From positions 1 to 38,611 of the forward strand of contig REEN01000041.1 in assembly GCA_007695015.1 (NCBI GenBank): a stretch of DNA of 38,611 bases. The letters are read 5' to 3'. Origin of the DNA: Marinilabiliales bacterium. GTDB taxonomy: Bacteria; Bacteroidota; Bacteroidia; Bacteroidales; PUMT01. A program made the translations under genes and the position numbers. Below the pieces are notes generated by a model. It was given only the letters and a program-made list of their open reading frames with translations. It made no database searches and was not told where the DNA came from. Shown here one piece after another: positions 17,091 to 18,858 of this stretch; within the stretch, counting starts at the first letter, position 1; each line of letters starts with the position of its first letter.

Positions 17091-17126
17091 ATAAAACATG
17101 CCGGCCCCCTCAACAGGAACCGGCAT
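17091..17126 (-). terminator. Candidate intrinsic terminator beyond trpB2
   Basis: On the minus strand ATGCCGG (17120-17126) pairs with CCGGCAT (17098-17104), followed by GTTTTATTT. The first arm overlaps the outer stem of the cloverleaf-like repeat, so the two folds exclude each other. Confidence 0.45.
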
Positions 17127-17255: not shown

Positions 17256-17273
17256 ACCCCGGGTTATTGGGGA
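17256..17273 (-). terminator. Weak terminator overlapping the trpB2 stop
   Basis: On the minus strand CCCC (17269-17272) can pair with GGGG (17257-17260) across a loop that contains the stop codon, followed directly by TTTTT. The stem is only 4 bp, so efficiency is doubtful. Confidence 0.35.
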
Positions 17274-18637
17274 TTCGGATAATTTTTAAGCACCTCGGTG
17301 AATTTTTTCAGGTCCTCTTCAGACATGCTGTGGTCTGTCAGCTCGCCATTAAGGTACTTGTCGTACCCTACGAGGTCCATCAGTCCGTGACCGCTCAGGT
17401 TGAACAGTATGACCTTCTCGCGGCCCTCTTCCCTGGCCTTTTTTGCTTCCCGTATGGCCTGTGCAACGGCATGACCCGTTTCCGGTGCAACTATAATGCC
17501 CTCCGTGGTGGCGAAGGTTATCGCTGCCTCGTAGCATTCGAGCTGGTCTATCGCCTGCGGGTTCATCAGTCCCTGTTTCACCGAATGGCTTATAAGCGGC
17601 GATATACCATGATAACGCAGTCCCCCTGCATGGATGGGTGGCGGTATGAAGCTGTGGCCCAGAGTATGCATGGCCAGCAACGGGGTCATCCCTGCGGTGT
17701 CGCCATGGTCATAGTGGAACGGCGCCCGGGTGAGGGTGGGGCATGAGGTTGGCTCTACCGGAATGATATCTATTTCGGCCCCGTTGATCTTGTCGTAGAC
17801 AAACGGAAAGCTGATACCGGCAAAGTTGCTTCCTCCGCCGGCGCAGCCTATAACAACGTCCACCTTCTTTTCGTTGGCTATCTCAAGTTGTTTCTTAGCT
17901 TCAAGTCCGATAATTGTCTGGTGCAGCATTACATGGTTGAGCACGCTTCCCAGGGAGTACCTGGTTTCACCCGATGTGTCGGTGACCGCCTCTTCAACAG
18001 CCTCGCTGATTGCTATGCCCAGGCTGCCCGGAGTGTCGGGGTTTTCGGCAAGGATATCGCGGCCCGATTTGGTCTCGTTACTGGGACTTGCAATGCAGTT
18101 GGCGCCCCAGGTCCTCATCATGAGCTTCCTGAAGGGCTTCTGGTCAAAGCTTATCCTCACCATATACACCTTGCATTCAAGTCCGAGCAACGAACACGCG
18201 AAAGCAAGCGCACTGCCCCATTGGCCGGCACCTGTTTCGGTAACAAGTTTCTTTATTCCGAACTCCTTGTTGTACCATGCCTGCGCAACAGCCGTATTCG
18301 GCTTGTGGCTGCCTGCCGGGGAAATGCTTTCATTCTTATAATATATACGTGCCGGGGTGTTCAGTGCCTTTTCCAGGAACCGGGCGCGGACAAGCGGGGA
18401 GGGCCTCCACCTGAAAAGCATCTCAAGTATGCCTTCGGGTATATCGATCCATCTTTGAGTGCTGACCTCTTGTTCTACCAGGTTCATCGGGAATACCGGT
18501 GCGAGCATGTCGGGGGTTACCGGCTTCCCGTCCGGCCCCAGGGGAGGGTTCATTTGTCCCGGAAGGTCTGCAGCGAGGTTGTACCACTGCCTGGGCATAT
18601 CCTTCTCGCTCAGAAAAATTTTGTAACTCTTGTCCAT
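17264..18637 (-). CDS. trpB: Tryptophan synthase beta chain, TrpB2 type
   Basis: PLP enzyme of 457 residues that condenses indole with serine to give tryptophan. The Schiff-base lysine is Lys112 in AGSHKPNTA, the catalytic Glu region is [11 protein letters not shown], and the PLP phosphate is held by [11 protein letters not shown]. The extra N-terminal region (about 1-75, including [16 protein letters not shown]) and the length mark the TrpB2 subgroup rather than classical TrpB1 of about 400 residues. TrpB2 enzymes usually do not bind TrpA and are thought to salvage free indole; no trpA or other trp gene is near. A tryptophan-rich leader peptide and attenuator lie immediately upstream, so expression should rise when charged tRNA-Trp is short. 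That fits a real role in tryptophan supply. Confidence 0.95.
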
Positions 18638-18661: not shown

Positions 18662-18692
18662 AAAAAAAGGGCATGTTTTTCACAACATGCCC
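18662..18692 (-). terminator. Attenuator terminator of the trpB2 leader
   Basis: On the minus strand GGGCATGTT (18684-18692) pairs perfectly with AACATGCCC (18669-18677) over a 6-nt loop and is followed by T7 (18662-18668). It lies between the leader peptide stop and the trpB2 ATG, where a regulated terminator should be. Confidence 0.85.
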
Positions 18693-18717
18693 CCGGTTAA
18701 TTAAAAAGGTTTTATGA

Positions 18718-18804
18718 TTACTGGTCCGTACCAGGCATGCTGCTCTTCTTGGTCCTCACGAACCAAAACCAGCGCCACCACCATACATGAACCAGGCTGT
18801 TCAT
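18718..18804 (-). CDS. Tryptophan-rich leader peptide of trpB2
   Basis: A 28-residue open frame starting MNSLVHV and continuing WWWRWFWF, then a short basic/polar tail to a TAA stop. Five of 28 residues are Trp, with three in a row. Ribosomes lacking charged tRNA-Trp should stall there and leave free the segment encoding SSMPG, which can pair with the left arm of the terminator. The transcript should start about 18 nt upstream of this ATG. The gene is too short to be found by length-based calling and was read directly from the minus strand. Function as a leader, not as a stable protein, is inferred from the full set of attenuator parts around it. Confidence 0.88.
   Translation of the reverse strand: MNSLVHVWWWRWFWFVRTKKSSMPGTDQ
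18734..18743 (-). promoter_or_regulatory. Antiterminator arm within the leader
   Basis: On the minus strand GCAGCATGCC can pair with GGCATGTTGT, the left part of the terminator stem, over about 10 bp counting G-U pairs. A ribosome that reaches the leader stop codon would cover this arm and allow termination. Confidence 0.7.
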
Positions 18805-18828
18805 TTTATTTCATTTGTTATACCGCGA

Positions 18829-18858
18829 CAAACATATGAAAATAATTTGTAGGTGCAA
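18829..18858 (-). promoter_or_regulatory. Bacteroidota-type promoter of the trp leader-trpB2 transcript
   Basis: Minus strand: TTG (18856-18858), a 19-nt spacer, then TATGTTTG (18829-18836), which fits the TTTG-N19-TAnnTTTG pattern. The predicted start, near 18822, precedes the leader ATG (18804) by about 18 nt. Confidence 0.7.

Follow-up and report, generated by a model that had tools for sequence, protein, structure and literature searches.

Sequence evidence supports the presence of a complete ribosome-mediated tryptophan attenuator preceding a genuine, stand-alone trpB2 gene in the window (the whole 38,611 nucleotide stretch of Marinilabiliales bacterium DNA that was analysed), and the arrangement was found to be conserved in relatives. 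The explanation favoured for this element, to which we assign a probability of roughly 85%, is that trpB2 is switched on by tryptophan starvation, recovering leaked or external indole in this organism and serving indole salvage in relatives that lack the tryptophan pathway. Within this explanation, we infer the response to tryptophan, the stalling of ribosomes and the activity of TrpB2 in this organism.

Organisation of the trpB2 locus

An earlier note on this DNA had described all the parts of a classic attenuator on the minus strand, and each was recovered where it had been placed, in the order promoter, leader, arm, terminator and trpB2. The promoter (18829..18858, minus strand) is of the Bacteroidota type, TTG-N19-TATGTTTG, as assigned by what we take to be the consensus of that phylum (TTG/TAnnTTTG), and its spacing is identical at the two closest orthologous loci, L003 and L004. 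The element TAnnTTTG was found near 25 of 52 Trp leaders (duplicates included), compared to 9.9% in shuffled sequences, while TTG-N17-21-TAnnTTTG was found near 16 of 52 (duplicates again included), compared to 1.0% in shuffles.

The leader ORF (18718..18804, minus strand) consists of 28 codons and a stop codon and encodes the peptide MNSLVHVWWWRWFWFVRTKKSSMPGTDQ, in which codons 8, 9, 10, 12 and 14 specify tryptophan, giving the run WWWRWFW. Segment 2, the 5’ arm of the putative antiterminator (GCAGCAUGCCU; 18733..18743, minus strand), lies within the end of this ORF, with GCAGCATGCC corresponding to 18743-18734. Segment 3, which is common to antiterminator and terminator, was placed at 18682..18692 (minus strand) on the basis of sequence and folding. 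The intrinsic terminator (18662..18692, minus strand) possesses a 9 bp core stem (GGGCATGTT/AACATGCCC; -14.5 kcal/mol) and a T7 run, with the ATG of trpB2 (18637) beginning 24 bases past this run. A consensus terminator scan of the region returned six terminator-like sites, with 2.5 being obtained from shuffles. This independent scan recovered the same intrinsic terminator before trpB2, together with a terminator-like hairpin 3’ of the gene (17098..17126, minus strand), which is the probable end of a one-gene trpB2 transcript.

No Rfam family scored above threshold in the window, with neither Trp_leader (which we take to be RF00513) nor the T-box being matched. Furthermore, no Trp_leader match at E <= 1 was found in eight loci, and Phe_leader, Thr_leader and DapZ appeared at chance level, far below the gathering threshold. 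A known Rfam element was rejected on the basis of the results for the window and the eight loci, and a T-box on the basis of the result for the window.

The trpB2 gene (17264..18637, minus strand) encodes a protein of 457 amino acids and was identified by profile scores. It scored 710.6 bits with NF009057 (cut-off 366) and 633.5 bits with TIGR01415 (cut-off 518.85), while its score on the TrpB1 model TIGR00263 (165.1 bits) was below the cut-off of 392.45. The motifs GSHK, ETGAGQ and GGGSN, presumably representing the PLP lysine, the catalytic glutamate and the phosphate loop, respectively, are intact and are common to the TrpB1 of the same genome. The nearest solved chains were 6hul_B, 4qys_B and 6hte_B.

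No trp genes were found near trpB2 in the available flanks of 108 loci, in a test that covered at most 5 kb, often ended by the contig, and that disregarded TrpB1 matches of less than 45% identity. Where a leader-bearing genome possesses trpA (27 genomes), trpB2 was located on another contig or, in G280, approximately 380 kb away. Coordinates placed trpB2 inside a trp cluster, between trpB1 and trpA, in three genomes (G147:C1, G320:C11 and G383:C2), and these have no Trp leader directly upstream of trpB2. The trpB2 of locus L112 (G131) was observed to contain three in-frame stops; its upstream terminator remains, and a Trp leader was not found there.

Predicted folding and the proposed switch

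The 187 nt leader was found to fold with a z-score of -3.37, with an equally good fold occurring in 1 of 200 shuffles. In the window, pairing of segment 2 with segment 3 amounts to -18.0 kcal/mol. The two alternative states envisaged in the earlier note were reproduced provided that segment 4 was still unmade in the stalled state. With a ribosome halted at codon 10 or codon 14, the antiterminator was formed (-17.8 and -17.5 kcal/mol, respectively), and with a ribosome at the stop codon, the terminator alone was formed. On the complete leader, however, the terminator was kept in every state folded, that with a stalled ribosome included, and in the minimum free energy structure of the whole untranslated leader segment 2 pairs with upstream sequence and the terminator is kept as well. 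The switch must therefore be decided during transcription, as in known attenuators.

In the proposed mechanism, transcription would start just downstream of 18829, judging from the promoter, resulting in a leader RNA that encodes a 28 residue peptide with five Trp codons. With ample charged tRNA-Trp, the ribosome would reach the stop codon and cover segment 2, allowing segments 3 and 4 to pair and causing RNA polymerase to halt at the T7 run. With charged tRNA-Trp being scarce, the ribosome would stall on the Trp codons and the pairing of segments 2 and 3 would precede segment 4, so that no terminator would form and trpB2 would be transcribed. TrpB2 would then form tryptophan from indole and either serine or one of its derivatives.

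Conservation in close orthologues

The two nearest TrpB2 orthologues (L003 and L004) share 95% protein identity with that of the window. Their leaders (MKNMVHTCLWRWWWFNTTNRCSMPGADQ and MKIMVHTCLWRWWWFITTDRCGMPGTDQ, respectively) occur with promoter spacing, arm and terminator as in the window, and the Trp run was found to be kept in these close orthologues while its codons move (WWWRWFW, LWRWWW). DNA similarity to L003 and L004 begins at 18847/18848 and stops where trpB2 ends, with an identity of 82-83%. The region of the hairpin behind trpB2 (17132-17093) matches L004 with 80% identity over 40 bases, with no such match being found in L003. Apart from the promoter to trpB2 stretch and this 40 base match to L004, no other stretch matching the compared loci was found in the rest of the 6 kb of the window that was compared. 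As the neighbours differ while promoter, leader and trpB2 are shared (18848-17263), this unit appears to have been relocated or rearranged as a whole. Within the same genus, trpB2 genes without such a leader were identified in G007 (71% identical) and in G002, G005, G011 and G012 (59-61%).

Survey of trpB2 upstream regions

Upstream regions were covered for 192 trpB2 genes, 188 of which are distinct (130 from Bacteroidota and 58 from other phyla or unassigned, sorted by record titles and kinship). Locus L009, at a contig end, was left out, and L011, L012 and L086 were dropped along with four further duplicates. The order contributed 143 genomes with trpB2 among 393 sampled evenly from a larger set, 111 with the upstream region covered and 32 without. 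A strict leader was defined as having three or more Trp within six residues and, in this survey, a strong terminator as having an energy of -9 kcal/mol or better.

Strict leaders were identified in 48 of the 130 distinct Bacteroidota regions, compared to 0.06 expected from shuffles, and were missing in 82. At least two Trp in six residues were found in 63 of these 130 regions, compared to 6.3 in shuffles. Outside of the Bacteroidota, strict leaders were found in 3 of 58 regions (L056 of KSB1, L073 and L077), with the leader of L040 being situated farther upstream. No strict leader was found among the controls (0/192 for the reverse strand and 0/101 at 800-1100 nt upstream, duplicates being partly retained), where two Trp in six residues occurred in 5 of 192 reverse strand and 4 of 101 distant upstream regions (duplicates partly retained here also). 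Chance or artefact was rejected on the basis of the shuffles and of the reverse-strand and distant-region controls.

A strong terminator was found after 47 of the 51 strict leaders from all phyla, with a rate of 0.8% in shuffles. The Trp codons and the terminator, on whose conservation the earlier note had made its reading depend, are thus kept in relatives. With regard to the covarying stems that it had named as a further check, the terminator stems of 18 loci showed paired changes on both sides at several positions (e.g. GC/AT, AT/TA and TA/GC) with pairs retained; each stem was paired by its own fold, the 3’ arms being misaligned in the MAFFT alignment.

The antiterminator was found to beat 95% of shuffles in 30 of 47 loci and was outside the best 5% in 17, clearly so for L111, L119, L125 and L013. 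Comparison of each locus's own partner with the terminators of other loci gave a weaker result (best 5% in 19 of 48), perhaps because many terminators resemble each other. On a tree of 80 trpB2 genes, which rests on about 130 residues, the leader required 17 changes, compared to 23 with shuffled labels, with six of the changes being forced by well-supported branches. The leader tracks ancestry only loosely, with frequent gains or losses.

Additional features were observed among these loci. Strong terminators occur after the Trp leaders of L040, L056, L073 and L077 (KSB1 and unassigned bacteria), and the leader peptides of L056 and L073 are related (NWL..WGWWW..FSHSG). Loci L111, L119, L123 and L125 possess a leader and a terminator with no convincing antiterminator, and their mechanism is less sure. 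A second type of leader, with WAWW or WSWWW upstream of trpB2, was identified at L137, L146, L158, L166 and L168, followed at close distance by a shared CCCC(C)-TGGGAG-loop-GCTC element and by a short terminator or none; its mechanism may differ. The sequence CATGTTG(G/T)TTACAGCATG was found to recur in trpB2 terminators (L038, L093, L099, L109 and others), which are more alike than termination needs.

A second attenuator before the trp operon and alternative explanations

The genome of the window was found to possess a complete trpEGDCFBA on contig C51. A second, different Trp attenuator is situated before its trpE (L118:16210-16400), consisting of a leader that contains WWW (MTGINTNNIWWWHGTIKSYVKRRCV, followed by a stop codon), the terminator GAGCCCGCTTAACATAGCGGGCTC and a 13 base arm complementary to the terminator, as read from the sequence. 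Trp leaders were found before trpE at 21 of 24 loci (that of the window's genome included), all 21 with a terminator; among the three loci without a leader, L204 is ended by its contig and L220 has coding sequence directly upstream.

The pattern TGGTGGTGG occurs at 57 sites in this genome, compared to 64 for the reversed pattern, and is therefore not enriched. The only sites at which it lies in a short frame (60 codons or fewer) with a strong terminator behind it were those of trpB2 and trpE, the search being based on this pattern only, so that leaders such as WRW would escape it. The site at L266 has a weak hairpin (-10.4 kcal/mol). From the two sites recovered, both units should answer tryptophan starvation. 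With the trp operon also preceded by a tryptophan attenuator, expression of the two would be expected to increase in parallel, with TrpB2 in this genome recovering indole that has leaked or is of external origin.

Since this Trp signal is common to trpB2 and trpEGDCFBA in one genome, and can most simply be read as control of trpB2 by the product of its own enzyme, it is unlikely that a real attenuator controls a TrpB2 that mainly performs another reaction (e.g. serine deamination), with tryptophan being merely a signal. It has been proposed that trpB2 acts as a serine deaminase, and for the orphan trpB2 of Pyrococcus horikoshii the selective function was described as not yet identified (PMC1854888). 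The same paper reports that two TrpB2o enzymes deaminate serine poorly, and a further report describes a Bacteroides TrpB2 that let an E. coli trpA mutant grow beside the wild type (PMC11535334), both of which argue against another main reaction.

That the leader is left over from an old trp operon and no longer works in the species of the window is considerably less probable again. While such a relic would suit a genome that already has a complete trp operon and a trpB2 that stands alone, as well as the absence of a strict leader from 82 of 130 Bacteroidota trpB2 regions, the promoter spacing, five-Trp run, 11 bp antiterminator and terminator persist despite changed surroundings and codons. 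Additionally, the leader of trpB2 differs from that of the trp operon in the same genome and is therefore not a recent copy of it.

The least probable alternative is a TnaC-like leader that stalls at abundant free tryptophan and induces trpB2, since, although a short Trp-rich leader does precede a Trp-metabolising PLP enzyme here, TnaC possesses one Trp at a fixed place and is Rho-dependent with no intrinsic terminator (the ground on which this type was rejected), whereas the elements described here have a Trp codon run, an intrinsic terminator (after 47 of 51 leaders) and a competing antiterminator, and TrpB makes rather than degrades tryptophan.

Tryptophan gene content and proposed indole salvage

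The preferred reading, a trpB2 switched on by tryptophan starvation, was considered in relation to trp gene content. The earlier note had held that attenuation by tryptophan makes trpB2 a true tryptophan-supply gene as opposed to one for salvage. The attenuator itself was found to be genuine, but the contrast with salvage did not hold, as trpA over the cut-off was missing in 25 of the 52 leader-bearing genomes, these being drafts. The 52 genomes include 37 with a strict leader followed by a strong terminator (-9 kcal/mol or better). The weaker ones have two Trp in six residues (G145, G246, G150, G189, G037, G323, G017, G306, G279 and G082), a terminator that was not found (G391 and G047), a leader 411 nt upstream (G171) or a weak hairpin (G377 and G235).

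The presence of trpA and trpB1 was tested in 80 of 115 genomes, that of trpC and trpD in 36 and that of trpE in 30. Fifty of the 80 trpB2 genomes were found to have trpA over the cut-off. Among the 25 leader-bearing genomes without it, trpC was found in none, trpD in one (G021) and a trpB1-type gene in two (G006 and G143). Nineteen of these 25 have a strict leader, with the antiterminator being in the best 5% of shuffles in 12 of the 19. Four genomes (G302, G219, G120 and G055) have a strict leader and a good antiterminator, are 99% complete and are without trpA and trpB1. G006 and G010, the genomes most closely related to that of the window, are without trpE, trpD, trpC and trpA but are only 90% complete, and, as trp genes are clustered, one lost contig in an incomplete draft can remove them all. 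The trpE gene was lacking in 6 of the 30 genomes tested, all six being leader-bearing.

Missing trpA was found to be more frequent in leader-bearing genomes (25/52) than in the others (5/28; Fisher p = 0.0085), but this excess was not significant once relatedness was allowed for using the tree. The claim is therefore limited to repeated occurrence of the attenuator in pathway-less genomes and does not extend to co-evolution. A lower-scoring TrpB1-type gene (525-533 bits) was observed in G006 (C134), G007 (C13), G012 (C256) and G143 (C81); G006, G007 and G143 are without trpA over the cut-off and in G012 the TrpB1-type gene is a second copy, and it is possibly another stand-alone TrpB.

Without the trp pathway, TrpB2 can make tryptophan only from indole. 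As many of the attenuator-bearing relatives are without trpA and trpC, and nearly all of these without trpD, their TrpB2 would supply tryptophan only from indole that is taken up or made by others. In most of the trpA-less leader genomes, trpB2 looks like the only tryptophan-making gene, and the switch would there govern what is apparently the sole remaining tryptophan-making step, namely indole salvage. This fits an indole salvage that is switched on by tryptophan starvation in trpA-less genomes, and supply and salvage are one job here.

On balance, we lean towards a broader view in which, in many tryptophan-auxotrophic Bacteroidota, a classic attenuator on an orphan trpB2 constitutes a starvation-triggered indole-scavenging module for cross-feeding on the indole of neighbours. 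In this view, promoter, leader and gene look like a portable unit in the lineage of the window, since close relatives have little else in common there. A tryptophan attenuator would indicate what the cell uses a stand-alone TrpB2 for, namely supplying tryptophan when it is short, and would link a switch for amino-acid starvation with indole, which is a common signal among microbes living in communities. Tryptophan leader-peptide attenuators are common in this Bacteroidota order, before trpE and trpB2 alike. If the broader view is true, an RNA switch known for biosynthetic operons serves cross-feeding on indole, and clear predictions follow for cultured Bacteroidota.

Comparison with known systems

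The trpL system of E. coli consists of a leader with Trp codons, a mutually exclusive antiterminator and intrinsic terminator, and placement of the terminator just before the gene, and the trpB2 attenuator is alike in each of these respects. It differs from trpL in having no match to Rfam Trp_leader, in its Bacteroidota promoter, in its target being a stand-alone trpB2 and in occurring also in genomes without a trp pathway. The indole salvage of Chlamydia (trpRBA) is similar in its tryptophan-responsive control, its indole-using tryptophan synthase and the tryptophan auxotrophy of its host. It differs in relying on the repressor proteins TrpR and YtgR and on trpBA, with neither a leader peptide nor trpB2 featuring in the available parts of the sources.

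Candidate tryptophan attenuators have been described in Actinobacteria, including one ahead of trpB2A of Corynebacterium diphtheriae (PMC1262725), which likewise precedes a gene named trpB2. According to the available part of that paper, however, this gene is with trpA in a biosynthetic operon, belongs to another phylum and is ‘trpB2’ by name. A survey from 2010 gave leader-peptide systems as known in Proteobacteria and Actinobacteria only and added Firmicutes, as stated in its available part (PMC2965389). Among Bacteroidota, indications that leader peptides attenuate operons for amino-acid biosynthesis from upstream have been reported for Flavobacterium psychrophilum (PMC9723704), a likeness to the system described here. 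The difference is that the main text of that report names neither tryptophan nor trp, and that its available part describes no stand-alone salvage gene.

As in the window, TrpB2o, T. maritima TrpB2 and BT_RS23500 (TrpB2 of B. thetaiotaomicron) are encoded outside of the trp operon, and they differ in that no attenuator is described for them in the available parts of the reports (PMC1854888, PMC11535334). Formation of tryptophan from indole is reported for T. maritima TrpB2 and was inferred for BT_RS23500, according to these parts (PMC1854888, PMC11535334). Overexpressed BT_RS23500 helped an E. coli delta-trpA strain only when this was spotted with the wild type, an effect attributed by the authors to secreted indole (PMC11535334). 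The open-licence literature, in the parts of it available, yielded no description of an attenuator preceding a stand-alone TrpB2-type gene, and subscription reviews may hold one. The mechanism is that of the known trp attenuator, and its target and physiological setting appear to be new in the open-licence literature.
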